The notes under the pieces were generated by a model. That model ran no database searches. It was not told the DNA's origin and was given only the letters and a program-made list of their open reading frames with translations. The position numbers and the translations under genes were made by a program. A stretch of DNA of 64,000 nucleotides from Haematococcus lacustris (Eukaryota; Chlorophyta; Chlorophyceae; Chlamydomonadales; Haematococcaceae), in NCBI GenBank assembly GCA_030144725.1, contig JASKMD010000008.1, forward strand, positions 13,968,915 to 14,032,914, read 5' to 3'. This document shows, one piece after another, positions 8,430 to 55,060 of this stretch. Each line of letters begins with the position of its first letter. Position 1 is the first letter of the stretch.

Positions 8430-9122
8430 CCAGCGGAGGAGGAGGAAGGTGCCCTGGGCTGGATCGAGGCTGGATCAAGTGCTGGATCATGGAGGCTGCT
8501 AGGGGCTCTGCGAATGTAGCGTCACAAGCCGACGAATGTAGCGTCACACAACCGTCACACAAGCCGGCAGCTGAGCCCACCAAGGGCACAGGCAAGGGCA
8601 AGGCCCAAGGCAAGGCTGCCAAAGCCAAGCCAGCACCACAGCCAGGTAGATGGCTGGACAGGGACTGCAATGCAGCGCTGAACATGCAGCGCATTGGGGA
8701 GAGCAGGTGGCGCCCACTGGAGCTGTGCTACTGGCCAGACCAGGGAGCGCTGCCAGCCAAGGGCAAGGAGTACCCTGGCCTGGGCTACAAGCGGCTGCGA
8801 GACAAGCCACCAAAGGCCCAGCAGCAGCAGCAGCAGCCTGCTGAGGCACAGTAGTGTGTGCCCCCCCCATCTGAGCTGTCATCAGCTTACAATTAGTGCA
8901 TGTTTTGTCATGCCACGTCTACACGATAGCCCTTAGGGGTCAGGCAATAATGTATGTGGTAGGCGGCTCATGTGCCATGTGCACTGGGTTTACTCCACAC
9001 AGCCCAATAACACCGTTTGAGTCGGGCCACTATTGCCCACTAGTATATTCCCGCTAGTGGCTGCTAGTGGCTACTACTGGTCCGGCTCAAATGGAGGCCC
9101 TAGTGAGGGACAAGGGGGCTGC
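8430..9122 (+). mobile_element. Truncated Fanzor-family element (copy A)
   Basis: Plus-strand fragment coding for the Fanzor C-terminus from the linker (AAEPTKGTGKGKAQGKAAK) through the RuvC-III motif (WLDRDCNAALNMQRIGE) to the stop at about 8854, followed by the family 3' segment and right-end palindrome. The right end is at about 9122, where similarity to other copies stops (GTGAGGGACAAGGGGGCTG). Upstream of the linker the normal zinc-finger segment is replaced by a module of about 105 bp (8448-8555), also present in copy H. The RuvC-I and RuvC-II regions are missing, so the protein cannot be an active nuclease. Confidence 0.85.
8855..9122 (+). ncRNA. Candidate omega-RNA / right-end region of Fanzor copy A
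   Basis: The 3' segment after the Fanzor stop is conserved in copies A, B, D, E and F and, more divergently, in C, L, N and O, although the coding part is often gone. It holds an invariant core (GTCAGGCAATA, then GTGGTAGGCG) preceded by a short variable hairpin, and ends with a large imperfect palindrome at 9013-9094. In known OMEGA systems the guide RNA overlaps the nuclease 3' end and runs to the element end. Assignment as RNA is inference; conservation and palindrome are seen. Confidence 0.5.
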
Positions 9123-10022
9123 TGGCCTAGTACGTCTTTGTGCCTGTGCGGCACAATGAATACCAACCAGGCCATTGGCATAGTATCAGGCTCCACGCTC
9201 TCCCAGGTGCACTGCAGCTGCAGCGTCGTCCCGGTCCAGCCACTGAACCTGACCCCTGCCTGGCCTGGCTGCTGAGCTTGGCAACATTGTCCATCACAAT
9301 TAGACTTTGCCGCCGACACATGACCAGCTACAGCATTACACATACTACACACTCTTGTCACAAGTTTCAGTGCCTGACGCTGTGCGAAAATTGACAGCCT
9401 GATGACCACGCATAACAGGACCATGTAGACCATGAGACAAGAGAGGATGTGTGTCAGTGCATGTGTGCTTCTGCCACCCGACCCTTCACAAGCCTGTGAC
9501 TGCGTCAATCAGTAATGCCATAGTTATCACGCTAATGAACTTGTCATCACCACAGCTAGTTCCGACCCTTTCAACCAGCACTGGTCACCGCACCAGCCTG
9601 ACTTGTGGTGAAGGGCATGTGTGAATGCAGCATAGCTACACCCAGTGCGTTGTTGAACCAGGCAATTACATGCACAGGGGTGTACAGCACTCAAGATGGG
9701 GCGGGCCAAACAACCCGATGCTGCATGTTTCTTGTAGCATTCCCCACATTGTAACAAAGTCCCAGAAGAAGGCAGTCAATGCATCCACGTCATTGCCTGG
9801 GGAACTGCTCTAATCCATGTCTGCTATACCTCCAGCTCACCGAAGAAACTGCTGGTCTTGAAACAGCCTTCCCGCTGTGCGCCATAATCGTGAAAGTGCT
9901 GGGCGCAGGTCCATGCCCTTCCACGCTTGACAAGAGTCCTCCAGGGCGGTGCGGCAGCTCTACCAGCAAGTTTGGACCCAGGGTACGGGGGGTCAGGGTC
10001 TTGAAGCTTCGCGCGTGACATG
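9123..10022. other. Intergenic stretch without a recognised gene
   Basis: Between Fanzor copy A and V-ATPase subunit e no reading frame has recognisable coding character. The part next to 10022 is the likely 3' untranslated region of the minus-strand V-ATPase gene. Confidence 0.6.
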
Positions 10023-10226
10023 CTAGTCCTTGAACTCGGGCATTATCAGCGGGTTGAGCTGCGCCATGTAAATGATGGCCCACATCAGCCAACACTGGAA
10101 TACCGCCGTGAAGGCAAGGATGTGCGGAAGGCCCTTGTTTCCTGGCTTCGCGAACAGGTTGACGCCTCCGGTAACTACAATCTGAATTAGGAAGAAAATG
10201 AGCGTACCCAACCAGAATCCAGCCAT
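10023..10226 (-). CDS. V-type H+-ATPase subunit e (V0 sector)
   Basis: Single-exon gene for a 67-residue protein, the usual size for V-ATPase subunit e (VHA-e/Vma9). It has two membrane helices: residues about 3-23 (FWLGTLIFFLIQIVVTGG) and about 33-55. The family hallmark after helix 2 is clear (WLMWAIIYMAQLNPLI), close to the plant form WMMWAIVYLAQMKPLI. The subunit sits in the membrane V0 sector of the proton pump on vacuole, Golgi and contractile-vacuole membranes. The region upstream of the start holds a hAT-type MITE (10357-10624), which may affect its promoter. The gene is flanked by inverted Fanzor copies A and B. Start is the first ATG, giving full family length. Confidence 0.93.
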   Translation of the reverse strand: MAGFWLGTLIFFLIQIVVTGGVNLFAKPGNKGLPHILAFTAVFQCWLMWAIIYMAQLNPLIMPEFKD

Positions 10227-10356
10227 CGCAGCTGCGAGCAGGTGGGTCTCTACCAGCTGTAGCGCGGACTGTCAGAACTCATCGGAGCTTGCATGAAAAG
10301 AGCATGCCAGATTTGTGAGTTCTGACATGCGCATGATAGCTATAGGGCGCGACCGG

Positions 10357-10624
10357 TAGGGCGCGACCGGACCTTGTTAAGGTTAATAGTCTTAACACAA
10401 CCTTAACACAGCCGCCTGGCCCCGCCCGGCTCTCTTTTTGCCCCGCTCTTGTTGTGATGGATGGAGAAGCAGCCAATGGTTGGGATGCCGACGAGAGCGA
10501 GAGCTTAAGCGTTCTGTTTCGTAAGTGCCAAGGGTTTGTTAAGGTTTTTGTTTGTTTTGTTGGTTTTGTTAAGGTGGTTAAAGGTCCAAAACATCAGGCT
10601 GTTAATATTAACAGTCGTGCCCTA
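10357..10624. mobile_element. hAT-type MITE with 8-bp target duplication, inserted in another element's terminal repeat
   Basis: Non-coding element of 268 bp. Ends are TAGGGCGCGACCGG at the left and, read inward from the right, TAGGGCACGACTGT. It is flanked by a perfect 8-bp direct repeat GCGACCGG (10349-10356 and 10625-10632), the target duplication length of hAT transposons. The flanking sequence on the left starts with another TAGGGCGCGACCGG-type terminus at 10343, so it inserted inside a relative's terminal repeat. It lies about 130-400 bp upstream of the V-ATPase e start. Confidence 0.85.
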
Positions 10625-10632
10625 GCGACCGG

Positions 10633-11611: not shown

Positions 11612-11659
11612 GTGAGCCCTGCAGCTCACCATCTTTACCTTCACCATTTTTACCATCAT

Positions 11660-12446
11660 CAGCCCCCTTGTCCCTCACTAGGGCCTCCATTGGAGCCGGA
11701 CCAGTGGTAGCCACTAGCAGCCACTAGCGGGAATATACTAGTGGGCGATAGTGGCCCGACTCAAATGGTGTTATTGGGCTGTGTGGAGTAAACCCAGTGC
11801 ACATGGCACATGAGCTGCCTACCACATACATTATTGCCTGACCCCTAAGGGCTATCGTGTAGACGTGGCATGACAAAACATGCACTAATTGTAAGCTGAT
11901 GACAGCTCAGATGGGGGGGGCACACACTACTGTGCCTCAGCAGGCTGCTGCTGCTGCTGCTGGGCCTTTGGTGGCTTGTCTCGCAGCCGCTTGTAGCCCA
12001 GGCCAGGGTACTCCTTGCCCTTGGCTGGCAGCGCTCCCTGGTCTGGCCAGAAGCACAGCTCCAGTGGGCGCCACCTGCTCTCCCCAATGCGCTGCATGTT
12101 CAGCGCTGCATTGCAGTCCCTGTCCAGCCATCTGCCTGGCTGTGGTGCTGGCTTGGCTTTGGCAGCCTTGCCTTGGGCCTTGCCCTTGCCTGTGCCCTTG
12201 GTGGGCTCAGCTGCCGGCTTGCTGCGCTTGGCTGGAGGGGGAGTGCTGGGCCCTGGCTCTGAGGCTGCTGCCGGTGTGGCTGCCTGGCTGCTGCGTGGGG
12301 CCTGTGGGGGCTTGCGTGGTGCCACTAAAGGGCACCACATCAGGCCCCGCACTGGCTGGTAACACTCCTGGCTCCAGGCTGGGCGCACCAGGCGCTGCTC
12401 CACCTGCCCCGCTGGGGGCTTCCAGGCCCCCACAAGCTGCAAACCA
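11660..12446 (-). mobile_element. Truncated Fanzor-family element (copy B)
   Basis: Minus-strand copy with an open frame of 171 codons (12442 to 11927). It covers the zinc-finger region (RPAWSQECYQPVRGLMWCP), the Lys/Ala linker and RuvC-III (WLDRDCNAALNM), ending in a polyQ tail. The 3' segment runs to the right end at 11660, with the palindrome at 11687-11768. The N-terminal two thirds are missing. It faces copy A (3' ends pointing inward), so the two form widely spaced inverted repeats around the V-ATPase e gene. Confidence 0.85.
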
Positions 12447-12590
12447 GTCAGGCATGAGCTGCAGAGCTAGAGGCTTCACTGCAGGCGGTGAACCAACCAT
12501 GCAGTTAGGCAGCTGGCATAGTATGAGGCGGCCTGCTGCACTCTGATTCCTGCTGCGCACTGACCCTACCTCGTCTGTCGTCTGACGCCT
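12430..12590. repeat. Repeat R1, first copy
   Basis: A segment of about 140 bp (GCATGAGCTGCAGAGCTAGA through ACTGACCCTACCTCGTC) is nearly identical to 63455-63595, which lies in an intron of the AP2 gene. On the minus strand both copies keep the same open frame (DEVGSVRSRNQ, then SPPAVKPLALQLMPD), so it may be a coding piece of an unidentified element. Here it joins the 5' edge of Fanzor copy B. Confidence 0.8.
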
Positions 12591-12600
12591 TCCTGCACAC

Positions 12601-12790
12601 TTAACCATCATCAGCGTCAGCCTGCACCACATACCGCACAAGCTGCGGGGTATGTTGTCAGGCCTGGCAGCCGGTATGCTCAAGGCTGGACCCTGGCCCT
12701 GAGCAGGGCTGGCACATGGCAGGGGCACGGCAGAAGGCAGGCACATGGCTTTAGAAGAGTGAACATGTGTGGGCTATGAGATTAGCTGCA
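12601..12790. repeat. Repeat R2, first copy (second at 14750-14955)
   Basis: Both stretches share long near-identical runs, such as GGCTTTAGAAGAGTGAACAT and GTGTGGGCTATGAGATTAGC, in the same orientation about 2.1 kb apart. The second copy lies in the PAP2 gene intron. No coding potential seen. Confidence 0.85.
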
Positions 12791-14148: not shown

Positions 14149-16073
14149 TCGTGATGTCAGACGTACCCATCGTGCTGGGCTTGCTGGGCTGGACCATCTG
14201 CTCAGCCACCTCCCTGCTGCAAGGCACACAGCCCATCAGGCTGTCCATCCTACTAGCATGGACCGCCTATGCCTGGGGTGCAGGTGTGTAGCTACCGCCC
14301 AGCTTCTGCCCCCACACTGCTGTATCGCAACACTGCCCCAACACCGCTGGCCAAAGCCTTATGTGCTGCCAGCTGCCAGGTGCCTGCCAGCTGACTGGTG
14401 CTGTTCGCCTTCAGTAGCTTGTTGACGCAGTTGAGGGCCCCCATTTGAGCTGTCATCAGCTCACACTTAGTGCATGTTTGTCATGCCAACTCTACATCAT
14501 AGCCCTCCAGGGTCAGGCAATAGTGTAGGTGGTAGGCGAGTATGATCATGTGTATGCCATGTATAAGCCATGTGTATGCCATGTGCATAGGAACTCCATA
14601 CAGACAATAAAACGGTTTTGTAGATGTCCACACTTAGTGTTCCACTGCAATGAAGGCTCTAGGTTGAGGGCTAACGTGCTGGTCGCCTTTAGTACACCAC
14701 CAGCACGGTGGCCAAGAGTATCTAAGTATATTCAGTATGACCACTGAGTGCCTCCATCTTCACCATCATCATCGCCAGCCTTGGCTGCACCACATACCAC
14801 ACCAGCTACGGGGCTCATTGTCAGGCCTGGCAGCTGGTATGCTCAAGGCTGGACCCTGGCCCTGACTAGGTCTGGCACATGGCAGGGGCGCGGCAGAAGG
14901 CAGGCAGATGGCTTTAGAAGAGTGAACATGTGTGGGCTATGAGATTAGCTGCATGGGGCGAGGATCGTCTGCTAGCAATCCAGCTATGTTATTGTTTTAG
15001 TGGCAGCCAGGGTTTTATGTAGGTTTTCTGAAGTGTTACTTGAGTGTGACAAAAGTGTGACTGTGTGGCTGTGCCCATACCTGTGGCTGCTGGCTGCAGG
15101 CCCCCTACAGTACGACCCCTTCATGGTAGACCTGATAAAGCAGGTGTTCCAACGCACCCGCCCCTCCCCCATCCATGATAGCTTCTCCTTCCCTTCCGGC
15201 CATACCTCCTCCGCCACCTTCCTGGCAGGCGCGCTGCTGTTCGTGCTGCTGCCCGTGGTGCAGCGCACATGGCAGCCTACCGCTACAGCTGCTGTGCAGG
15301 TGGCAGCTCAGCTGGAGGCTGGGGCACAGCCGGCTAGCAGGGGCAGCATGAAGGTGCTGCCGGACACGGTGCAGCGCCTGCGCAAGCTGGCAGTGCAGAT
15401 GCAGGTGAGGGGGACGGCTTACCATGAAGGGCAGTTCATGAGCCAGGGGCAGGGGCCTGAGGTAGAGTTGGGGTCAGGGCAGGAGGCAGCAGGCAGCAGG
15501 TAGGAGGCAGGAGGCAGGGCAGGGACCATGGAGGAGTACAGGGAAAGTTCCCTGACCTCACCAGCAAGCACCTCGGGCCATGCTGGAATGAAATGGGAGT
15601 CGCCATGCACTGCCCTGGAAGGCACTGACGGTCATATAGACTCGTTGGGGCAGCAGTCATGGGGTGGGCCGGTCTGGCTGAGATGGGTGCGGGGGTGAGC
15701 AGCAGAGACCTTGTGGTGGGTGGCTGGGGCGGAGCAGGGTGGACGATCCTCCACCTCCTAAGCTCCTACATTCCCTGCCCCAGCCCCTCCCCCGGAAGTG
15801 ACACAATCAATCAAGAATCACACGAGCAGCAACACACAGATAGAGTTGGGCTGAGATGGGCACCTTGGCCGCTTGTCTGCCCTGCGCCCCATGCTGCGCC
15901 ATGCGTAGGGGTCGTGGGGCTTGTGGGCTGCCGCCAGCTGCACAACAGCTGCGGGGCGAGTGATGGCAGACGCGCATTGGTTCTCGGACACCCTCGGAGC
16001 GTCCTTCCTCGGCATCACGCTGGTATCCTTGCTGGCCAATGCCGTGCGCCTCATCTACAAGGCGAATCGCTGA
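14149..16073 (+). CDS. PAP2-family lipid phosphatase / phosphatidic acid phosphatase-like membrane protein, 5' end uncertain
   Basis: Three phase-consistent exons. About 14149-14283 encodes hydrophobic helices (DVPIVLGLLGWTICSATSLL), 15100-15404 carries catalytic motifs C1 (KQVFQRTRPSP, the KX6RP signature) and C2 (PSGHT), and 15909-16073 carries C3 (GRVMADAHWFSD, with the catalytic His) and ends YKANR-stop. Joins are phase 1 and phase 0 with GT-AG signals at 14284, 15099, 15405 and 15908. PAP2 enzymes dephosphorylate lipid phosphates or polyprenyl diphosphates at membranes; the exact substrate cannot be told. Upstream exons are not resolved. The 816-nt first intron is loaded with repeats: a solo Fanzor right end and repeat R2. 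A decayed copy of the second exon sits in a duplicated block at 30.8 and 53.1 kb. Confidence 0.82.
14432..14690 (+). mobile_element. Solo Fanzor-family right end (copy L) in the PAP2 intron
   Basis: Matches the 3' segment of Fanzor copy C: TTGAGCTGTC..CAGC, TGTCATGCCAACTCTACATC, the core GGTCAGGCAATAGTGTAGGT, then the subfamily-specific GTATGCCATG repeats and CCACACTTAGTGTTCCACTG. No Fanzor coding sequence precedes it. It belongs to the C/L/M subfamily, whose end differs from copies A, B, E and F. Confidence 0.75.
14750..14955. repeat. Repeat R2, second copy, inside the PAP2 intron
   Basis: Near-identical to 12601-12790, same orientation. See the first copy for shared motifs. Confidence 0.85.
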
Positions 16074-17466: not shown

Positions 17467-17469
17467 CTA

Positions 17470-30568: not shown

Positions 30569-31089
30569 ATCAGCTGAAGCTGTACAACTAGAATAAATGC
30601 AGATCAGGGCTGAGCAGGTGTCACCAGCACTAGCTCACCAGCACTCTCCCCTCACTAAAGGCTGTGTTTTGTCTGTATGGAGCTATGTTTCCATGCACAT
30701 GTATTGGGCGCCTACCACCTACACTATTGCCTGACCCCTGTGACAGGGCTATAGCCTAGTTGTTCCAGCGCACCCACCCCTCCCCCCATCCATGCCAGCT
30801 TCTCCTTCCTCTCCAGCCACATCTCCTCCACCACCTTCCTGGCAGGCTACCTCCTCTACCACCTACCTGTGACCTTGCTTTGCTCAATGGTCAGCAATAT
30901 AGCATCAGGCAGAAGACTGTCCAGCACATAAACCAACGATGCCCCTACTGTGCAAAGGGCTGTCAGACTAACCATCATCGTAAGATCGCCACAGCGAGGT
31001 GTCAAACATGCTAGGCTGTGCCACACAGTCATGGAGTGCATTGCTTGTGTTACATGACTTGCATAACGCAATGATGGGCAGCAAGTGCA
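30569..31089 (+). repeat. 521-bp duplicated block (inverted partner at 52861-53380) with PAP2 exon fragment and Fanzor right-end core
   Basis: Near-identical to the reverse complement of 52861-53380. It joins three things: a Fanzor-family right-end piece (30660-30765, reverse; core GCCTGACCCCTGTGACAGGG), a decayed copy of the PAP2 catalytic exon (30763-30870; TGTTCCAGCGCACCCACCCC compares with TGTTCCAACGCACCCGCCCC of the gene), and unique sequence to 31089. In the PAP2 copy an extra C shifts the frame and PSGHT is lost. Confidence 0.88.
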
Positions 31090-33985: not shown

Positions 33986-35869
33986 ATGCAGGACATGCTC
34001 GCTCAGCTCCGACGGGAGGTGGGCATCTCTTTATCGGTGCAACGTCTGGTGGACGCTTTGGAGCAAGGCATTGCCAGCAGGTGCGTTGTTGGCATTGGTG
34101 GTGCATTAACGGCGGCATAGCGACAGCGGGTTAGCCCATGTGCAGGGCAGCCCGGGAGCAGGAGCTGGCAGGACAAGTGGCCAACAAAGATGCTGAAGCA
34201 GCCCGGCTGAGGGCAGAGATCAACCGCTTGCGTCAGGCCCACTCTGCCTCTGACAAGCTCAGTGCCTTACACGCAGCTGACAGCGAGAGTCTGCAGTCCC
34301 AAGTTCGGCAGCTGGAAAGTGCGAGCAAGTGGGTGGGTGTGCTGCATCATGCTCAGGCCTGACCCTGATGTCACTCATTTTTGTTTTGTCAGCACCAAGG
34401 CACCAACCCCACCAATACCCACCATTGGTGGGCTGGGTGGACCTGGGTGCCTGCTCAGCCTTGGTGCGCTTGCTGCGCCTGACTGGCACTCTGCACTGTG
34501 CAGCATGCTGTGATGCCGCACCTGCTGCTGCACAGGGCGGCTGAGCGTGCGGCTATCCTCAGTGCAGCCATCCCAGCTGCCGCCTCGCCCTCTGCACAGC
34601 TGCACCGGCTGCAGGCTGAGGTGGACGCCCAGGCACAGCTGGTGGCACGGCTGCAGGCAGAGCTAGGTGCCCAGTTAGCGTCCTCCACCGCACGGGCAGC
34701 AGAGCTTCAAGACAGCTTTGCAGCCAAGGTGGCGGACATGCGGCGAGCTCATGCAGAGAGGGTGGCTGCGCTGGAGCAGCAGCTGGCAGCAGCCGTGGCT
34801 TCCAAGGCGACGGAGCAGGGTGATTCAGTGAGTGGCTGTGGCTGTCCTGTGGCATACCTTCGATGATAAACTCGTCCCTGTCACCTGCCTTGATTCATCA
34901 GGGTCTGGGTTGCCATCCTTGTTGTGGCAAAAAGTATGCAAGCACATGGCAAACTGGTGGGAAAGCGCACATTCTTATTGCAGTGTGGGGGTTTGGGTGA
35001 ATAGCTGGAACCTATGGGCAGCTGTGGAGCTTGGGGTCTATAGTGAAGTGGTTTGGTGCGAGGCATTGAGCAAGAAACTGCCTTCCTAAGCTGACCAACA
35101 AATCGGATGCCAGGCAGAGCTGGCTCGACCTTGATGCCCAGGAAGCAACGGCCTGTAGGCGCTGCCTATGCAGGCACTGCGACAGACTTCCAAAACACAA
35201 TCCGCAGAGCTGCTGCGGCTTCAGGCGGATGCAGCCGCACAGCACGAGGCCGCGGACGAACTGCGTGCTGAGCTGGCGCGCCTCCACCACCAGCTAGACG
35301 CCAGCCGCAGGGAGAACGCAACGCTCAGTGCGAAGGTGGCCGCACAGGAAGCAGAGCTGTCTCGACTCACCAAGGCAGTGACAGCGGCTGAGGCGCAAGC
35401 AGCAGAGCATGCCGCCCGAGCTCAAGAGCTGAACACACAGCTGATGAAACGCAGCAGCCACGAGGGCAAAGGGGGAGGCTCCATGGGGGGTGGAGGAGGC
35501 GCCCCAGGGCCGCCCAATGGTTGTCTGACTGACATGAGCAACATGGTGGCGATGATGGAGGGGCAGCTGGCACGTCTCAGTGACCTGATCCGCACCAAGG
35601 ATAGGGAGGTGGCTGACCTGCGGGGGGCACTCACGGCGGGCTGCGAGGAGCGGCGTGACCTGATGCAGCAGCTCCAGGCAGCAGAGCTGCAGCAGCAGCA
35701 GCAGCAGGGGGGTTCTGCGGCAGCTGCCGGGCCACGGTCGCCTGGAAGTGTAGGCATGGGCGCCCCTCACAGCCCCACTGGGGTCAGGCAGGCGGGTAGC
35801 CATGGCGGTGCAGCAGGCATTGGGAAACCATATCGCACTGGCCTGAGATCAAAGCCCTTGTTCAAGTAG
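33986..35869 (+). CDS. Coiled-coil protein of about 420 residues, four exons, not recognised
   Basis: Exons 33986-34080, 34146-34328, 34536-34827 and 35174-35869 join in phase with GT-AG signals. The start is MQDMLAQLRREVGISLSVQR. Exons 2-4 are almost all heptad coiled coil (AEAARLRAEINRLRQAH; LVARLQAELGAQLASS; ELLRLQADAAAQHEAADELR). A conserved-looking helical block LARLSDLIRTKDREVADLRG comes before a Gly/Ser/Gln-rich tail ending RTGLRSKPLFK. The pattern suits a centrosomal, basal-body or cytoskeletal scaffold, but I cannot name the family. A CAG run codes for polyQ at about 35690-35706. Confidence 0.75.
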
Positions 35870-37886: not shown

Positions 37887-40420
37887 TTACAACACAAGGC
37901 TGAAGAAGGCACAAGGCCCCTCAACACTGCCCAGCCTCACCTCCTTCTGCACTAAGTAGCCGTGGCGGATGGACAAGTAGAACTGCACAGGGGGGCCAGC
38001 AGCGCTGCCCTGCGGCTGCACCTCCAGGGGCATGAGCGTGGCGCCAGCCAGGCGACGCACCTCAGCCACGCTGCGGCCCTTGAAGGGCGGCAAGATGTCT
38101 GCCACGGGCACATCCTGATGGCAGGCGGAAGGGCGAGGGTTTGTGAACTGGGCAGTGCACGTGGCGGCGGCTGTGGGCATGTGTAGGGGTCAACCCTTCG
38201 TCCCTCACTAGGGCCACCATTTGAATCAGACCACTAGGGACCACTAGAGGCCACTAGCGGGACCACTGAAGATGGTGTTATGTGACTGTGTGGAGTTATG
38301 TTCCCATGCACATGGCACATGGCACAAACGCCTACCACCTACACTATTGCTTGACCCCTGTGACAGGGCTATAGTCTAGAGTTGGCATGACAAACATGCA
38401 CTAAATGTGAGCTGATGACAGCTTGACAGGGGACACACACTACTGTGCCTCAGCAGGCTGCTACTGCTGCAGCTGGGCCTTAGGTGGCTTGTCTCGCAGC
38501 CGCTTGTAGCCAAGCTCAGGGTACCCCTTGCCCTTGGCTGGCCACCAGCACAGCTCCAGGGGTCAGCCTAACAGCTTCCATGTGGTGCAGTAGGGCGAGG
38601 GTTCTCAATTCAAGTAACAGCCGCACCTTGTCCAGGCGGTTGCCATACATGTCAAGCACACTGAAGCGTGCCACACGCCGCTCAGGCAGCAGCAGCGACA
38701 GCTCGCCCACATAGCGGCTGGAGTAGAACCTGTGCGGCACAGCCTCATGGCCAGCTGCCTTAGTGAGCATGCGCTGTATATTGGATGTCAGAGCTGGCCT
38801 TACCAGATGCAGTACGAGGTGACCACGCAGCCGAGCATGACAGCCGTGACGGCGGCTATGTAGTTCCAATCAATGTCATGCTGCAAGCACGGGACAGCAG
38901 GGTCAAGGAGCAGCAGCCACTGCAGTAGAGCTGGAGCAATGGCAGCAGCAGCAGCAGCAGCAGCGGTGGTGGCGATAGCAGCAGCTCAGACATGATAAGG
39001 ATGATGAGCAGCAGTGCAGTGCGCGATAACACTCTGTGGGCAGGCTGCTGTGTCATACGCTTAGACACCAGGCAGCCCTTAGAAGGTGCCCTTTGGACCT
39101 TAGGAGGTGCCCTTTGGAGGTGCCCTTTGGAGGTGCCCTATGGAGGTGCCCTACGGAGGTGCGAGAATGAGTGACACACAGGCAGCTGAGCCCACCAAGG
39201 GCAAGTGCAAGGCCCAAGGCAAGGCTGCCAAAGCCAAGCCAGCACCACAGCCAGGCAGGTGGCTGGACAGGGACTGCAATGCAGCGCTGAACATGCAGCG
39301 CATTGGGGAGAGCAGGTGGCGCCCACTGGAGCTGTGCTACTGGCCAGACCAGGGAGCGCTGCCAGCCAAGGGCAAGGAGTACCCTGGCCTGGGCTACAAG
39401 CGGCTGCGAGACAAGCCACCAAAGGCCCAGCAGCAGCAGCAGCAGCCTGCTGTGGCACAGTAGTGTGTGCCCCCCCCCATCTGAGCTGTCATCAGCTTAC
39501 AATTAGTGCATGTTTTGTCACACCATATCTACACTATAGCCCTAACGCGTCAGGCAATAATGTAGGTGGTAGGCGGCTCATGTGCCATGTGCACTGGGTT
39601 TACTCCACACAGCCCAATAACACCATTTGAGTCGGGCCACTATTGCCCACTAGTAGATTCCCGCTGGTGGCTGCTAGTGGCTACTACTGGTCCGGCTCAA
39701 ATGGAGGCCCTAGTGAGGGACGAGGGGGCTGTTTGCAGAGCCTTGAGGGCCGGGGTGCTGCTGCCTGACACTTACCCCACTTGGGATGGAGGCCAGCAGC
39801 GCTGCCCCCATGAACACGCCCAGCAGCTGAAACACCTTGGCCCTCACAAGGATACGGAAAGGCAGCATCCACCTATGAGGAAGGGAGGGAGGGTGGGTGG
39901 ATGGTATGTGGAAGGGAGGGTAGTGAGTACTGCTAAATAGGTTGAAGGGGCTAAATAGCTCCATTTCAGCAGCCATGCTATGTTGCTAAATTCGTGGTTC
40001 AGCTCCTGATTATGCACCTGCCTCTGTACAGCACCTGCCGGGGCACTGGGGCACCTAGACGAGTTGTATCCAGAGGACTGCCTGGAAGCTCAAAGCTCAA
40101 GCCTGCATGCCACAGCCAGCATGGTCCTGCATGTCAGGTGGCAGAGTAACATAACGCTTTCGTGAGAAATTGCAGCACCCCGCGTAACCTTGAAGCTGGC
40201 GTTGCAGTTCCTGTTGCATGGTTGCCATGCCCCTGGCAGCCATGGGAACGACACAGATGCTGCTGGCTGTCAGGCTATAACGCTGCCAACACTGCTTGCC
40301 AGGGACAAGCCCTTGCGTTGGTATAGTGGCCATTGGGTGTTGGTGTAGCGCGTGTTGGCTCAATATCATGTCACATGACAAGAGAAGGGCCGGCAGATAT
40401 CGCCTACACGATGCTGCCAT
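37887..40420 (-). CDS. TMEM186-like mitochondrial membrane protein
   Basis: Exons: 5' exon from 40420 (MAASCRRYLPALLLSCDMIL, Arg-rich and without acidic residues early, like a mitochondrial presequence), about 39776-39880, 38804-38880, 38627-38729 and 37887-38114. The last three join in phase. The second exon encodes RWMLPFRILVRAKVFQLLGV, the third HDIDWNYIAAVTAVMLGCVV (membrane helix), the fourth FYSSRYVGELSLL followed by RFSVLDMYGNRLDK, and the fifth DVPVADILPPFKGRSVAEVR. YVGELSLL..SxLDxxGNRxD is the TMEM186 hallmark; the animal protein helps assemble respiratory complex I. Introns hold Fanzor copies D and E. The exon 1 donor and a possible extra 3' exon (GTGAGG after GAG near 37944) are unresolved. 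Confidence 0.78.
38190..38575 (-). mobile_element. Truncated Fanzor-family element (copy D) in the last TMEM186 intron
   Basis: Minus-strand remnant: right end at about 38190 (CCTTCGTCCCTCACTAGGGC), a diverged palindrome, the core GCTTGACCCCTGTGACAGGG, and the last about 40 codons of the Fanzor frame (LRDKPPKAQ.., polyQ tail) truncated near 38575. RuvC-III itself is missing. Confidence 0.75.
39030..39730 (+). mobile_element. Internally deleted Fanzor element (copy E) in the TMEM186 exon 2-3 intron
   Basis: Left-end segment 39030-39165 (shared with 23020-23125 and 28855-28915; contains a five-fold GGAGGTGCCC(T/A) repeat), a short intact ORF, then the full family 3' segment and right end at about 39730. 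The palindrome is at 39623-39704. It is antisense to the host gene. The right end abuts host sequence leading into TMEM186 exon 2, and this flank recurs at 44844-44949 beside copy F. Confidence 0.85.
39167..39463 (+). CDS. 98-residue Fanzor C-terminal mini-ORF
   Basis: An uninterrupted frame starts MSDTQAAEPTKGKCKAQGK, passes through RuvC-III (WLDRDCNAALNMQRIGE) and ends with a polyQ tail (AQQQQQQPAVAQ). Its start codon is the same MSDT start seen at copy C, so it has its own initiation context rather than being a chance truncation. It lacks RuvC-I, RuvC-II and the zinc finger, so nuclease activity is not expected. Whether it is expressed is unknown. Confidence 0.55.
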   Translation: MSDTQAAEPTKGKCKAQGKAAKAKPAPQPGRWLDRDCNAALNMQRIGESRWRPLELCYWPDQGALPAKGKEYPGLGYKRLRDKPPKAQQQQQQPAVAQ

Positions 40421-43435: not shown

Positions 43436-43540
43436 TCCAGCCCCCTTGTCCCTCACTAGGGCCTCCATTTGAGCCGGACCAGTAGTAGCCACTAGCAGCC
43501 ACCAGCGGGAATCTACTAGTGGGCAATCGTCGGAAAGTTT
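43436..43540 (-). mobile_element. Solo Fanzor-family right end (copy G)
   Basis: Terminal about 100 bp only: CCCCTTGTCCCTCACTAGGG, CCATTTGAGCCGGACCAGTA and AATCTACTAGTGGGCAAT, after which similarity stops in the middle of the palindrome. Confidence 0.85.
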
Positions 43541-44843: not shown

Positions 44844-44949
44844 GGTGTTTCAGCTGCTGGGCGTGTTCATGGGGGCAGCGCTGCTGGCCTCCATCCCAAG
44901 TGGGGTAAGTGTCAGGCAGCAGCACCCCGGCCCTCAAGGCTCTGCAAAC
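44844..44949 (+). repeat. Second copy of TMEM186 exon 2 and its donor, next to Fanzor copy F
   Basis: Reads GGTGTTTCAGCTGCTGGGCG through ATCCCAAGTGGGGTAAGTGT to the F right end. It is nearly identical to the reverse complement of 39731-39838 (exon 2, its GTAAGT donor and the intron sequence up to copy E's right end). The order ORF, right end, host exon is the same at both loci. A further fragment of Fanzor right-end arm (GGCAATAGTGGCCCGACTCA) lies just outside, at 44811-44840. Confidence 0.9.
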
Positions 44950-45057
44950 AGCCCCCTCGTCCCTCACTAGGGCCTCCATTTGAGCCGGACCAGTAGTAGC
45001 CACTAGCAGCCACCAGCGGGAATCTACTAGTGGGCAATAGTGGCCCGACTCAAATGG

Positions 45058-45215: not shown

Positions 45216-47896
45216 CTACTGTGCCACAGCAGGCTGCTGCTGCTGCTGCTGGGCCTTTGGTGGCTTGTCTCGCAGCCGCTTGTAGCCCAGGCCAGGGTAC
45301 TCCTTGCCCTTGGCTGGCAGCGCTCCCTGGTCTGGCCAGTAGCACAGCTCCAGCGGCCGCCACCTGCTCTCCCCAATGCGTTGCATGTTCAGCGCTGCAT
45401 TGCAGTCCCTGTCCAGCCATCTGCCTGGCTGTGGGGCTGGCTTGGCTTTGGCAGCCTTGCCCTTGCCCTTGCCTTTGCCCTTGGTGGGCTCAGCTGCCGG
45501 CTCAGCCATGGTGCGCTTGCTGCGCTTGGCTGGAGGGGGAGTGCTGGGCCCTGGCTCTGAGGCTGCTGCCGGTGTGGCTGCCTGGCTGCTGCGTGGGGCC
45601 TGTGGGGGCTTGCGGGGGGCCACTACAGGGCACCACATCAGGCCCTTTACTGGTTGGTCACGCTGCTGGCTCCAGGCTGGGCGCACCAGGCGGTGTTCCA
45701 CCTGCCCTGCTGGGGGCTTCCAGCCTGCAGGCCTTGTGGCACTGAGTTTGTTCAGCTCCTCCTCACAGGGCTGCTGGCCATTCACTGCTGAGCTGACCCG
45801 GCTGGTGCGGTGCTCATCCTCAAGCACCACCCTGCCTCGTCGCTGGCCTGCGCCCCTGGGCCTGCACACCACCTTGCAGCAGGCTCGCAGCACCGCATCA
45901 GCACCCCACCCACCCCCAGTGCCAATGGTAGCTGCACCAAAGAGCACCACCAACTGCTTGGCATGCCCATGGCGCTCCATGGACAACTCCTCCATGTCCT
46001 CCTCCAGCTGCAAGCATGCACACAAGGCACATACATGGTGGCTGACATGGTGGCACACGGTTAGGCATGGCACAATCAAGAACTCTTTCGTTTCGTGCCC
46101 GACCCACCACCTCTCAGTCCTTTACCCTCCCCCCCTCCCTCCCAGTCCCTTACCCTCCCTCACCCACTCTCACCTTGTTGAAGAACTGCTCCAGCGCCCG
46201 GTCCTGGGCTCCGTACAGCCTCAGCCGCTGCCGTGCCCACTTGGGGTCCAGGTTCACCTCCCACACCGCATCCCAGGTGGCCAGGGCGACGGTGATGTGC
46301 TTCAGGTTTGCCTCCAGGGAGGTGCCGGCTGAGCTTGCTGCTGCCAGGTGCTGGAGGTGGGGCTTGATCGGTGCAAGCCACCGCTCTGTGTCACGGCGGG
46401 CATTGTTCAGGTCGCTGGGGCATGCTTCACCTCGCCCTTGGTCAGCTTCCACCGGCGCAGCTGGTCTGCCATCAGCTCCCTGCCTATGTGGGGGAGTCCC
46501 ATTGCATGCGCCGCTGCTGCTGCTGCACTTGGGCGGCTGCTGCTGCTGCTGCTGCTGGCAGCTGGGGGTGGGGCTGGAGGAGGGGGAAGGGGGCGCGTGT
46601 AGTGCACGCACACGCTGACACCGTCAGTGTCCACCGTCCTCTCAAATGCAAACTCCTTGTTACGAAGCTTGTTGGTGTTGAACCACCTGGCCCAGTGCTG
46701 GCTCAGTGCTGGCTCTGAGGTGAATGCTGCCCGGGTTTCCGTGGTTAGGCCCAGCTGCTTGCATACCCCATGCAGTACCCTGCTGTCCACCTTGATGAAG
46801 TGCACCCCCGCCCTGGCCATGGGGGTGAGGGTGAAGGGGGGTGGACAGGTCAGGGTCCGGGGACCAACCCCACGCCTCTTGCCGCGCTTTGGTTGCCCTG
46901 GCACAGGGGGGGTGTGGGGCTGCTGCCACTGCTCTAGCCACCGGCACACATGCACTGCATGTCGCATGCGGCAGGGCAGGGGCAGGGTGTCCTGCAGGGA
47001 GCCTTGCTTCTTCATGCCCAGTAGGCGACGGTGCTTGCCGGCCTCCTCTATCTTGTACGCCACATGCCCCTTGTCCAGGGCGGCGGCCTTCAGCTACGAG
47101 CTCTTGGCGTTGATGCCATACCCGCACGCCATCTTGATGAACAGCTGCGCCTCCTCACCGCTCCAGCCACGCTGGGCCCTGGCTGCATTGACGTACAGCT
47201 TGACAAAGCGCTCTGCAGGTCAGGTACAGGTCAGGCCAGGTCAGGTCAGGTCAGGTCAGGTCCAAGTTCGGGGTCTAGTCACCACCATCACTTGCCTGGG
47301 TTGGAGTAATGCTGCTGCATGGCCACCGCCAGCTGCATGGAGTGTGCGTCGATGGTGTTGGCGTCACCCGCCAGGTTGATGCTGCCCAGCTCCTGCAGCT
47401 TGGCCAGAAGCGCCTGGTTGCTGGGGTCCTCAAAGGCTGGCATGAGCATGGGGTGGCGGTGCTGCCCTGGGCGCACAAGGCGCCGCTGCAGCTGGTTGTA
47501 GACTGTCGAAGTTGGGGTTGGCGAAGAACTTGCAGAAGTCTTTCAGCTGCCTCAGCATCGCTGGGTCCTCGCAGTCGAGGGGCATGGGGGGGCCAGTGGG
47601 TGCTGCGGGTGCAAGGGCTGTCAGGCGGGCGCTGCAGCGCCTTTGGGGGGGTTGCGTGACTGGCTCAGGTTCTGGCTCTGACTCCGAGTCAGACTGTGGC
47701 TCTGGCTCAGAGTCACAATCTGACTCGGAGTCAGAGTCAGTGTCACACTACATGCTGGCAGGCTGGGCAGGGGTAGGCTGGGCAGGGGCCCGTGGGGGGA
47801 GTGGGGGTAGGGGGGGAGCATCAGGGGGTTGGGGGGGCTGCACGGCTGGAGGCTGAGGGGCGCTGGGGAAGCCCGGGGTAGGGTAGCCCACCAGGC
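45216..47896 (-). pseudogene. Fanzor (eukaryotic TnpB-like, OMEGA) protein gene, disrupted
   Basis: Reading order on the minus strand: Pro-rich and acidic N-terminus (DSDSESDCDSEPEP), QLKDFCKFFANPNFD, YNQLQRRLVRPGQHRHPMLM, a GC-AG intron (CCAG|GCAAGT near 47295 to 47217), ERFVKLYVNAARAQRGWSGE, FAFERTVDTDGVSVCVHYTR, WKLTKGEVKHA, WARQRLRLYGAQDRALEQFF, a GT-AG intron (about 46177-46013), VVLFGAATIGTGGGWG, VVLEDEHRTS (RuvC-II region), a zinc-finger remnant (RGLMWCPVV) and RuvC-III (WLDRDCNAALNMQRIGE). Lesions are TAG at 47748-47750, a frameshift near 47503, TAG at 47094-47096 and a frameshift near 46415. At the RuvC-I site the sequence reads GLPHIGREL without the expected DPG Asp. It is inactive as it stands. 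Confidence 0.85.
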
Positions 47897-48386: not shown

Positions 48387-48545
48387 CGGTTGTGTGACGC
48401 TACATTCGTCGGCTTGTGACGCTACATTCGCAGGGCCCCTAGCAGCCTCCATGATCCAGCACTTGATCCAGCCTTGATCCAGCCCAGGGCACCACATTAG
48501 GCCCCGCACTGGCTGGTCATGCTGCTGGCTCCAGGCTGGGCGCAT
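48387..48545 (-). mobile_element. Fanzor-family fragment (copy H) with the 105-bp module of copy A
   Basis: Encodes RPAWSQQHDQPVRGLMWCP of the zinc-finger region, followed directly by the module (GGATCAAGTGCTGGATCATG, GTAGCGTCACAAGCCGACGA) that also occurs at 8448-8555. It lies just upstream of the small basic gene. No right end is present. Confidence 0.75.
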
Positions 48546-48722: not shown

Positions 48723-48778
48723 CAACCAGCTAATATAACATGGGAAATATGTTTGACTGTGGATATTCTCGCATATTG

Positions 48779-48851: not shown

Positions 48852-48861
48852 ATGTCACCTT

Positions 48862-49120: not shown

Positions 49121-49370
49121 CCTCCTACTCACATCGTTCCTCCTGCTCACCTCCTGCTCACCTCCACCTCCTTTTTCACCTCCACCTTCATCTTCCACTA
49201 CACCTCCACCTCCTTCTTCACCTCCATCTCCACCTCCATCTTCACCTCCACCTCCATGTTCACCTCCACCTCCTTCTTCACCTACACTTACCTCTTCACC
49301 TACTCCCCACCCACCATCGCCACATACACCCCCATCTCCATCTCCACCCTTACCCTCATCTTCGACCTGG
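49121..49370 (+). repeat. Pyrimidine-rich CACCTCCA-type simple repeat
   Basis: Degenerate array of CACCTCCACCTCCTTCTT-like units, almost pure C/T/A on the plus strand. Confidence 0.9.
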
Positions 49371-51895
49371 ACCCTCGTTGGTCACCCTACCTCCCCCAGC
49401 CCCTCCTTCAAGCTCAGCCTTTGACCCTCCCCCTCCTGCCTCCCTTAGCCCCTCACCCACCTGGACCCCTCGTTGGTCACCCTACCTCCTCCAGCCCCTC
49501 CTTCAAGCTCAGCCTTTGACCCTCCCCCTCCTGCCTCCCTTAGCCCCTCACCCACCTGGGCCCCTCGTTGGTCACCCTACCTCCTCCAGCCCCTCCTTCA
49601 AGCTCAGCCTTTGACCCTCCCCCTCCTGCCTCCCTTAGCCCCTCACCCACCTGGACCCCTCGTTGGTCACCCTACCTCCTCCAGCCCCTCCTTCAAGCTC
49701 AGCCTTTGACCCTCCCCCTCCTGCCTCCCTTAGCCCCTCACCCACCTGGACCCCTCATTGGTCACCCTACCTCCTCCAGCCCCTCCTTCAAGCTCAGCCT
49801 TTGACCCTCCCCCTCCTGCCTCCCTTAGCCCCTCACCCACCTGGACCCCTCGTTGGTCACCCTACCTCCTCCAGCCCCTCCTTGAAGCTCAGCCTTTGAC
49901 CCTCCCCCTCCTGCCTCCCTTAGCCCCTCACCCACCTGGACCCCTCGTTGGTCACCCTACCTCCTCCAGCCCCTCCTTCAAGCTCAGCCTTTGACCCTCC
50001 CCCTCCTGCCTCCCTTAGCCCCTCACCCACCTGGACCCCTCGTTGGTCACCCTACCTCCTCCAGCCCCTCCTTCAAGCTCAGCCTTTGACCCTCCCCCTC
50101 CTGCCTCCCTTAGCCCCTCACCCACCTGGACCCCTCGTTGGTCACCCTACCTCCTCCAGCCCCTCCTTCAAGCTCAGCCTTTGACCCTCCCCCTCCTGCC
50201 TCCCTTAGCCCCTCACCCACCTGGACCCCTCGTTGGTCACCCTACCTCCTCCAGCCCCTCCTTCAAGCTCAGCCTTTGACCCTCCCCCTCCTGCCTCCCT
50301 TAGCCCCTCACCCACCTGGACCCCTCATTGGTCACCCTACCTCCTCCAGCCCCTCCTTCAAGCTCAGCCTTTGACCCTCCCCCTCCTGCCTCCCTTAGCC
50401 CCTCACCCACCTGGACCCCTCGTTGGTCACCCTACCTCCTCCAGCCCCTCCTTCAAGCTCAGCCTTTGACCCTCCCCCTCCTGCCTCCCTTAGCCCCTCA
50501 CCCACCTGGGCCCCTCGTTGGTCACCCTACCTCCTCCAGCCCCTCCTTCAAGCTCAGCCTTTGACCCTCCCCCTCCTGCCTCCCTTAGCCCCTCACCCAC
50601 CTGGACCCCTCGTTGGTCACCCTACCTCCTCCAGCCCCTCCTTCAAGCTCAGCCTTTGACCCTCCCCCTCCTGCCTCCCTTAGCCCCTCACCCACCTGGA
50701 CCCCTCGTTGGTCACCCTATCTCCTCCAGCCCCTCCTTGAAGCTCAGCCTTTGACCCTCCCCCTCCTGCCTCCCTTAGCCCCTCACCCACCTGGACCCCT
50801 CGTTGGTCACCCTACCTCCTCCAGCCCCTCCTTCAAGCTCAGCCTTTGACCCTCCCCCTCCTGCCTCCCTTAGCCCCTCACCCACCTGGACCCCTCGTTG
50901 GTCACCCTACCTCCCCCAGCCCCTCCTTCAAGCTCAGCCTTTGACCCTCCCCCTCCTGCCTCCCTTAGCCCCTCACCCACCTGGACCCCTCGTTGGTCAC
51001 CCTACCTCCTCCAGCCCCTCCTTCAAGCTCAGCCTTTGACCCTCCCCCTCCTGCCTCCCTTAGCCCCTCACCCACCTGGACCCCTCATTGGTCACCCTAC
51101 CTCCTCCAGCCCCTCCTTCAAGCTCAGCCTTTGACCCTCCCCCTCCTGCCTCCCTTAGCCCTTCACCCACCTGGACCCCTCGTTGGTCACCCTACCTCCT
51201 CCAGCCCCTCCTTCAAGCTCAGCCTTTGACCCTCCCCCTCCTGCCTCCCTTAGCCCCTCACCCACCTGGACCCCTCGTTGGTCACCCTACCTCCTCCAGC
51301 CCCTCCTTCAAGCTCAGCCTTTGACCCTCCCCCTCCTGCCTCCCTTAGCCCCTCACCCACCTGGACCCCTCGTTGGTCACCCTACCTCCTCCAGCCCCTC
51401 CTTCAAGCTCAGCCTTTGACCCTCCCCCTCCTGCCTCCCTTAGCCCCTCACCCACCTGGACCCCTCGTTGGTCACCCTACCTCCTCCAGCCCCTCCTTCA
51501 AGCTCAGCCATTGACCCTCCCCCTCCTGCCTCCCTTAGCCCCTCACCCACCTGGACCCCTCGTTGGTCACCCTACCTCCTCCAGCCCCTCCTTCAAGCTC
51601 AGCCTTTGACCCTCCCCCTCCTGCCTCCCTTAGCCCCTCACCCACCTGGACCCCTCGTTGGTCACCCTACCTCCTCCAGCCCCTCCTTCAAGCTCAGCCT
51701 TTGACCCTCCCCCTCCTGCCTCCCTTAGCCCCTCACCCACCTGGACCCCTCGTTGGTCACCCTACCTCCTCCAGCCCCTCCTTCAAGCTCAGCCTTTGAC
51801 CCTCCCCCTCCTCCCTCCCTTAGCCCCTCACCCACCTGGACCCCTCGTTGGCAACCCTACCTCCTCCAGCCCATCCCTTCAAGCTCAGCCTTTGA
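49371..51895 (+). repeat. 95-bp minisatellite, about 26.5 copies
   Basis: Tandem unit of 95 bp containing CTCGTTGGTCACCCTACCTC, CTCCTTCAAGCTCAGCCTTT and CCTCACCCACCTGGACCC. Sites such as GTTGG/ATTGG, TTCAAGC/TTGAAGC and CTGGACC/CTGGGCC vary between copies, otherwise homogeneous. The plus strand is poor in G and A. Since 95 is not a multiple of three, the overlapping 78-codon frames that start in almost every unit are a by-product and not a gene. Confidence 0.98.
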
Positions 51896-52096
51896 CCCTC
51901 CTGCCTCCCTTAGCACGTGTCGCAGTATTTACCTCTTCTCTATAAGCTCCTTTTCCTTTGGTCCCAGAGTTCTCTTCTCCTAGTTTGTTTCCCTCTTTTG
52001 CTTTTACGTTCAGTTCAACTCTTCGGCTTTCTACCTTTGGAGGTTGGCTTGTATCCATCCAAGCCCTGCCTCTTCAGTGTAACAACTACTACTACC

Positions 52097-52360: not shown

Positions 52361-52574
52361 AGGCCACAGCTGGGCTGGGCTGTCACAGCACTACCGCAAC
52401 ACCGCTGACAGAGGCCTCATCTGCTCCAACACTGCCTGCTGCCTGCTAGCTGACTGGCGCTAGTCGTGGCTACCACCGTGCCTCTACACCAGCATATAAC
52501 AGCTTGATTGATAACAGTTGACATATGTAACTTACAGTTGATAAGTTGATAACAGCTGTCAACTGCTGACAGCC

Positions 52575-52735
52575 CAAGAGGGGGCACACACTACTGTGCC
52601 TCAGCAAGAGGCTGCTGCTGCTGGGCCTTGGGTGGCCAGTCTCGCAGCCGCTTGTAGCCCAGGCCTGGGTACTCCACGCCCTTGGCTGGCAGCTCAGGCC
52701 ACTAGTACAGCTCCAGTGGGCGCCATGCTCTTCCC
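52575..52735 (-). mobile_element. Fanzor-family fragment (copy I)
   Basis: The last about 45 codons of the Fanzor frame (RPLELY-stop, then PAKGVEYPGLGYKRLRD and a polyQ tail) plus the first bases of the 3' segment. It has an in-frame stop and is truncated at both sides. Confidence 0.75.
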
Positions 52736-52860
52736 TTCTCTTGAGTTATTGCGCTGCTATGTGCTGTGCTTCGAGACGTCTGTGTTGTGTCCACGCAACT
52801 TAGGATTTTAACGGCTCACTCTCACGGAGTGATGAGCATGAAGGTAGCCTTCACTGGACC

Positions 52861-53380: not shown

Positions 53381-53451
53381 CATTTCAGGGGACCACTGAT
53401 GTTAGTCCATTCAGCTGATGTCTTCAGGGTTGGGGTAGGGGTTGGCTAGGC

Positions 53452-53975
53452 TCCCCATCGGCTCCTTGAGGCTGCCATGCCGTGAGCTGCCGGGTACTCA
53501 ATGTTGCCCTCCTCCTGCCGCAGGTCCATGGCCATTGTCATGAGGTTGCTAACCCGGGTCACAGCCCCACACCACAATGCCCTGCCTACCTGCCAAGGGG
53601 CTGCCTGTTCCCTTCCCTGATGGCATCCAAGGCAGCCCATCCCGGCTCCTGAGCTGTCCTGATGTGGGTGGGGTGGAGGGGCCAGCAGGGGCCAGGATGA
53701 TGTGGAGGGGCCAGGCTGGTGGACAGCAGGGGGGTGGGTCAGGGGGCCCTCGTCGTCGGTCACTGCCAACCGTGCAAAGCTACCCCCTGCCCCCTAAAGT
53801 CATGTATGGTGGAGGGGCATGGGACTCCAAAGAGGCAGCTTGCTCCAAGCTTGTCCTCCAGGGATAGGTGCAACATAGAGAGAGGCTCGACCCCCGCATG
53901 AGCACGATCCCTGAGCAACTCCTGCAGCTTGTTCTTGTGCACAGCCTCATTTCTTCTGCAACGGCCGCCTGCTTG
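53452..53975 (-). CDS. C-terminal exons of an unrecognised gene
   Basis: Two plausible exons. About 53790-53965 encodes RNEAVHKNKLQELLRDRAHA then EPLSMLHLSLEDKLGASCLF, and about 53452-53555 encodes NLMTMAMDLRQEEGNIEYPA then AAHGMAASRSRWGA-stop. Acceptor-like CAG and TAG sites precede both; the first ends near a GTAGCT donor. Composition is more protein-like than the surroundings. The upstream part would run into Fanzor copy J at 54245, so the gene may have been truncated. Confidence 0.4.
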
Positions 53976-54244
53976 ACTGCAGAACGGGTGGCGCGAGACG
54001 CCTTGGGAACCGTAGGCTGGGGCCAGGGACTAGGCTGGGTGCGTGGCTTAAGGGGTCGGAGTGGGCTGCAGAAGGTTGGGATCCCTGGTGTTGTGGCCAG
54101 AAGGTGGAGCTGGGAATGGGGAGGGGGGAGCACTGGGCACAGGCACTGGGCACAGGCTCTACTGGTGAGCATCTGCTGCCAGACCCTGGCTGGCCCACGT
54201 CCCCAGAGCTGGCCCACGTCCCCAGAGCGAGGTTCTACCTTCCA

Positions 54245-54655
54245 GCCCCTTGCCCTTGCCCTTGCCTGTGCCCTTGGTGGGCTCAGCTCCCGGCTCAGCC
54301 ATGGTGCGCTTGCTGCGCTTGGCTGGAGGGGGAGTGCTGGGCCCTGGCTCTGAGGCTGCTGCTGGCTGTGTGGCTGCCTGGCTGCTGCGTGGGGCCTGTG
54401 GGGGCTTGCGGGGGGTCACTACAGGGCACCACATCAGGCCCCTTACTGGCTGGTCACGCTGCTGGCTCCAGGCTGGGCGCACCAGGCGGTGTTCCACTTG
54501 CCCTGCTGGGGGCTTCCAGCGTGCAGGCCTTGTGGCACTGAGTTTGTCCAGCTCCTCCTCACAGGGCTGCTGGCCATTCACTGCTGAGCTGACCAGGCTG
54601 GTGCGGTGCTCATCCACAAGCACCACCCTGCCCCGCCGCTGGCAGCTGGCAGCCT
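54245..54655 (-). mobile_element. Fanzor-family fragment (copy J)
   Basis: Encodes VVLVDEHRTSLVSSAVNGQQ, the zinc-finger region (QQRDQPVRGLMWCPVV) and the linker up to AEPTKGTGKGKGKG, where similarity ends at 54245. RuvC-III and the right end are absent. At the first site it keeps VDEHRTS where copy F reads EDEHRTS. Confidence 0.8.
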
Positions 54656-55060
54656 AGAGTTGGCATGACAAACATGCACTGATTAAGCTGACAGCTCAAG
54701 AGGGGGAACAATACTGTGCCGCAGACTGCTACTGCTGCTGCTGCTGCTGGGCCTTGGGTGGGCGGTCTCACAGCCGCTTCTAGCCCAGGACCTGGATACT
54801 CCCCGTCCTTGGCTGGCAGCTCAGGCCACTAGTACAGCTCTAGGGGGTGCCACCTGCTCTCCCCAATGCGCTGCATATCCAGCGCTGCATTGCAGTCCCT
54901 GTTTACCCACCCGCAGAGCTGGTGCTGGTGTGGTGCTGAGCTGTGGTGCTCCGAGGCTGCTGGCTGTGTCAGGGCTGTATGGGCTGGCATTGAGGCACCT
55001 GGAGGCACCACATTAGGCCCCGCACTGGCTGGTCATGCTCCTGGCTCCAGGCTGGGTGCA
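54655..55060 (-). mobile_element. Diverged Fanzor-family element (copy K)
   Basis: Separate, more decayed copy: 3' segment piece (TTGGCATGACAAACATGCAC), tail frame with in-frame stop (RWHPLELY-stop), and an altered RuvC-III (WVNRDCNAALDMQRIGE), then a junction with repeat R3. The change of the first motif residue shows relaxed constraint. Confidence 0.75.

Follow-up and report, generated by a model that had tools for sequence, protein, structure and literature searches.

A probable Fanzor1-like element family with a fixed 3′ end and GG|CTG insertion sites in Haematococcus lacustris

Element copies in the 64-kb window

The stretch of DNA analysed here, referred to as the window, comprises 64,000 nucleotides of the green alga Haematococcus lacustris (contig JASKMD010000008.1, C476 in our numbering, 13968915-14032914) and holds many copies of a mobile element that probably encodes a Fanzor1-like RuvC nuclease. 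A previous sequence-only reading had described one near-full-length Fanzor copy and at least a dozen fragments, with a RuvC-III motif in copies A, B, C, E and F that is altered in copy K, and with DEHRTS and GLMWCP regions in copies F and J. All of these motifs were located by motif scan. The RuvC-III segment WLDRDCNAALNMQRIGE is exact at 8651-8701 (+), 12080-12130 (-), 29345-29395 (+), 39260-39310 (+) and 45369-45419 (-), and its altered version in copy K, WVNRDCNAALDMQRIGE, lies at 54859-54909 (-). DEHRTS occurs at 45801-45818 (-) and 54597-54614 (-), while GLMWCP has five sites in the window and the changed form GLMWCL one more. A search of the window with L051, a 3,761-bp element from another locus, gave 20 alignments at 16 places (E ≤ 1e-5) and none with the reversed query; a window self-comparison with the copy F region as query was in accord with this. 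With the alignments of copy F counted once and the 29-bp matches at 30709 and 53212 excluded, the window contains copy F and 13 fragments, in agreement with the earlier count.

The near-full-length, Fanzor1-like copy F spans 48435-44952 on the minus strand (~3.5 kb), with its 3′ terminus at 44952. Its 5′ limit is ~1.2 kb beyond 47220, where the initially joined protein pieces had ended. At least one intron, bordered by GT...AG, is present (46173-46008). The copy lacks 120 bp at 46478/46477 where L051 encodes the RuvC-I segment IGVGIDPGVTQ, and is also broken by a frameshift and an in-frame stop. Because the RuvC-I aspartate is gone, copy F cannot give rise to an active nuclease. The segment 47003-46809 (~65 residues) was considered as an intron and rejected, as it is coding in relatives; the joined copy F query used for protein, Pfam and PDB searches lacked these residues.

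The fragments differ in which part of the element they keep. Copy A (8410-9118, +) is internally deleted: a 108-bp 5′ module (8448-8555), 98% identical to that of copy F, is followed by the 3′ segment 8566-9118, the middle being lost. Copy B (11663-12603, -) is 5′-truncated, with homology over 11663-12425. Copy C (29071-29646, +) is a RuvC-III segment and copy E (39181-39728, +) a 3′ segment with RuvC-III, while copy J (54248-54634, -) holds the DEHRTS-GLMWCP segment and copy K (54655-54928, -) the altered RuvC-III segment at 78% identity. The remaining pieces are a fragment at 14438-14538 (+), a 36-bp fragment at 34453-34488 (-), a diverged 3′ segment at 38194-38542 (-, 78% identical), a 3′-terminal fragment at 43441-43502 (-), a GLMWCP fragment adjoining the 5′ side of copy F at 48487-48544 (-), a C-terminal/3′ fragment at 52557-52735 (-, 80% identical) and an altered GLMWCP fragment at 55004-55060 (-). 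Copy C and the fragment at 14438-14538 belong to a subfamily with a different 3′ end of its own, their match ending 131 bp short of the usual one. The copies had been described as mostly 5′-truncated or internally deleted; both kinds are present, and copy A is of the second kind only. Different 5′ modules precede a common leader in L053/L055, L056/L057, L047/L051 and the window copies A/F, and the internally deleted copies L055, L056 and A retain their 5′ module.

A RuvC nuclease family lacking the first zinc knuckle

With the joined pieces of copy F as query, 976 proteins matched at E ≤ 1e-3 (7,992 candidates scored), and the best 120 of these 976 are all annotated as Haematococcus lacustris. 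One of the motif search expressions applied to the relatives was taken from PMC10711439 (cited, like PMC10432273, PMC11423790, PMC12633428 and PMC10400597, from excerpts of the text). A D...E...D triad with DPG and RD is found in 144 of 279 relatives, a set that includes partial and chimeric gene models, and in 68 of 120 in a separate count of the listed copy F matches; the D-to-E spacing is most often 174-185. The E[FH]RT[ST] motif, absent in 44 of the 279, is followed by RVSS in 222 of the other 235. One predicted protein, P0032, joins Fanzor-like pieces to ribosomal protein S11 and BT1 domains and is probably an annotation chimera.

A second Fanzor1-like family of the same alga (P0121-P0279) was met through a chimeric protein and comprises 331 proteins at E ≤ 1e-4 (7,999 candidates scored), the best 120 all from H. 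lacustris. Its motifs read DWLGCDPGKTNMATVAHEE ... VHEFRTSRVSS ... FYDRDVSAALNIRR; aligned with the window family over 445 columns it shows 29% identity, and it likewise lacks the first zinc knuckle. Its predicted fold matches seven Fanzor1 chains, among them 9cer, 9cf0 and 9cf1, over 364-467 residues at 10-14% identity, and the model appears to reproduce the overall Fanzor1 fold of SpuFz1 from Spizellomyces punctatus (PMC10432273) and of GtFz1 and PpFz1 from Guillardia theta and Parasitella parasitica (PMC11423790). In the excerpted description of GtFz1 and PpFz1, the catalytic E lies in the loop before the TNB and the D on the next helix, to which E[FH]RT and RD would correspond; unlike GtFz1, which has N as third catalytic residue, the Haematococcus proteins keep D (PMC11423790). 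The triad-bearing relatives, their alignment to the second family and the predicted fold of that family together suggest that the product of the window family is quite probably a Fanzor1-like RuvC nuclease that lacks the usual zinc knuckle. A 3′-anchored, trans-mobilised behaviour of the family is likewise quite probable.

Several results weigh against this identification. The published Fanzor/TnpB motif, as given in the excerpt of PMC3627910, includes a C4 zinc finger between the second motif and RD; among the 235 relatives with E[FH]RT[ST], none has CxxC directly after it and none the full [TS][TS]xx-C4 finger. The profile search by which the Fanzor claim was to be checked came back empty: the joined frames of copy F matched no Pfam family even at E ≤ 10 and no Fanzor in PDB by sequence, nor did profiles of the relatives find a Fanzor in PDB. 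PF07282 (Cas12f1-like_TNB) matches the relatives weakly and below threshold (14 of 22 at E ≤ 1, best 0.0029; a further 6 of 20, best 0.0081), P0126 reaching 14.5 bits for a curated cut-off of 26.3, and a PF07282 search of the alga's own genome gave 0 matches (6 candidates scored). The fold comes from the second family only, whose model has a mean predicted local distance difference test (pLDDT) of 53, a moderate confidence, and falls below 50 over residues 651-766, the part with RuvC-III; for the window family itself the model, at pLDDT 32, is unusable. A precomputed PF07282 annotation is present on 6 of the 120 listed copy F relatives. The Fanzor identity proposed earlier thus holds through the triad, the second-family alignment and the fold, and not through a zinc finger or any profile match over threshold.

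Profile matches that are weak or lacking, and the loss of the zinc knuckle, would also be expected of an unrelated RuvC-type nuclease that came to resemble RDxNAAxN by convergence. The kept motif order, with commonest D-to-E spacings of 174-185, and the 445-column alignment to the second family, with its fold match to seven Fanzor1 chains, make such convergence highly unlikely. No transposase was seen in the element family, and a scan of viral contigs for a giant-virus link gave 138 stretches that fit a pattern, none of them confirmed.

One fixed 3′ end at GG|CTG

The window was chosen because of its element termini. In the assembly searched (307.9 Mb), the 26-base terminus followed by CTG has 3,515 sites with at most one mismatch (reversed control, 0), an average of 0.73 per 64 kb. 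The window has five termini, and the local burst described by the sequence-only reading belongs to an amplification that extends over the whole genome. The published H. pluvialis assembly has 30,575 genes and 50.8% transposable elements (PMC10400597, excerpt), and among open-licence PMC texts, as excerpted, no description of a Haematococcus Fanzor element was found. The best 40 of 2,665 candidate 3′ ends, which were scored, are 98-100% identical to the query; being the top of the candidates, they speak neither for nor against a formerly active lineage, as the sequence-only reading had proposed. An intron-donor site ~1.2 kb upstream of the terminus occurs 934 times, making 3′ ends roughly 3.8 times commoner than this mid-gene site, a rough ratio as the pattern lengths differ. 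Many copies are 5′-truncated or internally deleted and share one fixed, structured 3′ end.

Copies retain the one intron tested. A genome search for the spliced junction found five places with two mismatches and none exact: L031 and L032 read as unspliced, L033 and L034 have CTGAGG, and L035 has two exon mismatches.

The folded 3′ end consists of a 17-bp stem whose loop varies, the small hairpin CCCT-AGTG-AGGG and a tail rich in G; in copy A this region lies at 9013-9118 (+) and ends in ACAAGGGGG. The fold has a z of -2.43, with 3 of 200 shuffles folding equally well. When 32 of 48 distinct 3′ ends were aligned, near-identical and stem-cut ends being left out, pairing cells made up 95.1% (93.4 shuffled) and double-change cells numbered 16 (5.3 shuffled), and a free RNAalifold consensus retained much of the stem and the small hairpin. 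Against a conserved structure, 14 of the 16 double-change cells fall at a single pair, and two of five structure measures do not stand out: 53 of 500 shuffles reach the value for pairs with double change, and 89 of 500 that for pair types. An Rfam scan of the window gave 0 matches. The 3′ region of copy A is a candidate guide-RNA scaffold or recognition end.

Elements insert at GG|CTG, with 13-15 bp duplications in part of the sample. The junction of terminus and target has the form GGCCCTAGTGAGGGACAAGGGGG|CTG: 48 of 55 ends read GGGGGCTG, in a sample mostly selected for CTG, and five of the other seven still precede CTG; the bases after CTG are unrestricted among the flanks. For the duplications, 74 copies were merged into 53 by identical first 25 nt of flank. 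In eleven of these 53, a stretch of 11 bp or more that starts with CTG is repeated exactly on the upstream side, compared with 22 of 2,756 (0.8%) in a cross-locus control, where seven of the 22 reach the 30-base limit, as expected of duplicated surroundings. Nine of the 11 repeats are 13-15 bp long, and eight of these nine are preceded by GG. Among 20 loci with 6 kb of upstream sequence, exact repeats of 13-14 bp are present at six, and the 14-bp repeat at L056 differs by one mismatch. Weighing against a general rule, 42 of the 53 flanks have no repeat of at least 11 bp, where 30 of the 53 have only 0.6-4.5 kb of upstream sequence.

Copies with clear duplications span 134 bp to 3.5 kb. L053 and L057 retain the 5′ leader and start codon and carry exact duplications of 13 and 14 bp, respectively. 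They are incomplete copies, which counts against treating them as full-length cases: the middle of L053 has no match to P0020 and L057 lacks residues 358-538. As 5′ ends vary between loci, their “complete” 5′ end is uncertain. At the complete L051, an 11-bp repeat follows GG, but the surroundings are repetitive and common to L047. L046 is inserted exactly at the 3′ junction of an older copy, as expected if every junction renews the target GG|CTG.

In the window, copy A is preceded by GCTGGCCTAGTA at 8398-8409 and followed after 9118 by CTGCTGGCCTAGTA, likely a target duplication imperfect by one base. An 11-bp repeat, CTGATGATGGT, lies on both sides of copy B (12604-12614 and 11652-11662) without a preceding GG and is a candidate duplication. 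The 10-bp repeat at the 43441 copy, also without GG, was rejected, 63 of the 2,756 null values being 10, and in the flanks of copies E and F no convincing target duplication was found. Copies E (39732-39836) and F (44844-44948) have ~105 bp of 3′ flank past the terminus in common before they diverge, which may be read-through or a duplicated target. This common flank, and the reduction of 132 copies to 106 distinct 40-nt flanks, would also fit a local cluster grown by tandem or segmental duplication of one insertion. The flanks of copies A, B and 43441 differ right at the terminus and candidate target duplications surround A and B, so that such an origin is very improbable.

Copying models and known Fanzor1 elements

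We then propose a model in which a putative enzyme, acting in trans, cuts GG|CTG in a staggered way and the element is copied in beginning at its 3′ end, where an early stop or skipping would yield truncated and internally deleted copies. The 3′ hairpins may serve as a guide-RNA scaffold, by analogy with the OMEGA design (PMC10432273, excerpt). Copies reduced to the 3′ end would then resemble the “ghost” loci of SpuFz, and the nuclease would cut empty sites, aiding retention of the element.

For the enzyme, one tentative candidate, which we place short of an even chance, is target-primed reverse transcription in trans by a LINE (long interspersed nuclear element)- or Penelope-like enzyme, acting on nuclear transcripts that are still unspliced and terminate with the 3′ hairpins and GGGGGCUG. 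It would account for near-constant 13-15 bp duplications on truncated and leader-keeping copies alike, for the variable 5′ modules, and for the constant junction CTG, as expected if a CAG-ended primer anneals. However, the 3′ end has no A-rich tail, and no spliced templates were seen, although an mRNA-copying enzyme should meet them.

The other candidate, likewise tentative, is one-ended rolling-circle transposition of the Helitron2 kind, in which the 3′ end is acted on in trans by a RepHel enzyme and copying ends prematurely, as Bao and Jurka concluded for the Chlamydomonas elements CRe-1/2/3 (PMC3627910). Those elements show the same 5′ truncation, internal deletions and intact 3′ ends, have 5-10 exons, and make ~7-19 bp duplications after a fixed tetranucleotide (PMC3627910); the 3′ bias, kept intron and hairpin near the 3′ end seen here fit this mode. 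On the other hand, CRe insertions at the consensus 5′ end have no duplications, whereas L053 and L057 with their leader have 13-14 bp, a contrast limited by their differing and possibly incomplete 5′ ends; nor is there a CTRR end, as the Helitron rule in the excerpt of PMC3627910 would have it, since the bases that follow CTG are unrestricted. We lean very slightly towards target-primed synthesis on unspliced nuclear RNA over rolling-circle transposition.

It is tempting to consider that the Fanzor-like protein itself takes part in insertion, a flank guide beginning with CTG selecting GG-adjacent sites that share their first 10-16 bases with an existing copy; repair from the shared side would then copy the element in from its 3′ end. 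If true, a eukaryotic OMEGA element would be homing under RNA guidance, and 3′ anchoring, 5′ truncation and intron retention would have a joint explanation. Of the 5,565 pairs that the 106 distinct flanks form, 13 have at least 10 nt from CTG in common, against 0.48 expected by column shuffles. Most of the sharing pairs inspected appear to reflect repeats, duplications or nested insertion: L006/L019 agree again further downstream, beyond a gap of 19 nt, the 14-mer of L038/L120 is found in a dispersed repeat as well (L037) and L120 departs after 14 nt, L108/L109 are 1.7 kb apart, L012/L013/L023/L028 look like a single duplicated target, and L117/L123 and L119/L121 have near-identical flanks. 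For L073/L077, which share 10 nt, no repeat or duplication explanation fitted. Since most of these pairs point elsewhere, we regard homing as very improbable.

The family resembles CRe-1, CRe-2 and CRe-3 of Chlamydomonas reinhardtii in its Fanzor1-type multi-exon protein, non-autonomous nature, frequent 5′ truncation and internal deletion, intact 3′ ends, duplications and fixed target bases (PMC3627910). It differs in its target (GG|CTG, not TTTT; PMC3627910), in duplications on leader-keeping copies as well, in the missing first zinc knuckle and in number, with 3,515 termini compared with 150, 70 and 35 CRe loci (PMC3627910, excerpt). According to the excerpt of PMC10432273, Spu-1 also left many gene-less ends (134 ghost loci); unlike the elements here, whose 5′ ends vary between loci and whose first knuckle is lost, it carries an inverted repeat at each end and a zinc finger of the CCCC type. 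In another green alga, Auxenochlorella, the most abundant repeat is a Fanzor-encoding element, in a genome of low repeat content, unlike Haematococcus (PMC12633428, excerpt). What is new here is a very large Fanzor1-like amplification with no first zinc knuckle and a clear target rule; the kind itself is known.

Two further features lie in the window. A 95-bp tandem repeat occupies 49365-51901 (26.7 copies, 98% matches), ~0.9 kb upstream of copy F, with a strong strand asymmetry (GC skew -0.64 over 50001-52000), and a 1,271-codon open frame at 57206-61021 (+) has no Pfam match at E ≤ 0.1.

Why Fanzor1 elements of a green alga duplicate their targets and lose 5′ ends when related non-autonomous Helitrons rarely do is a question that Bao and Jurka did not settle (PMC3627910). 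Haematococcus is an independent instance, whose thousands of termini, sharp target motif and near-constant duplications suffice to separate rolling-circle from target-primed copying. A RuvC family without the first zinc knuckle and with the triad would test the need for the ribbon. Many pieces of the element turn up among the proteins predicted for this biotechnological alga, as seen in the best 120 of the 976 matches.

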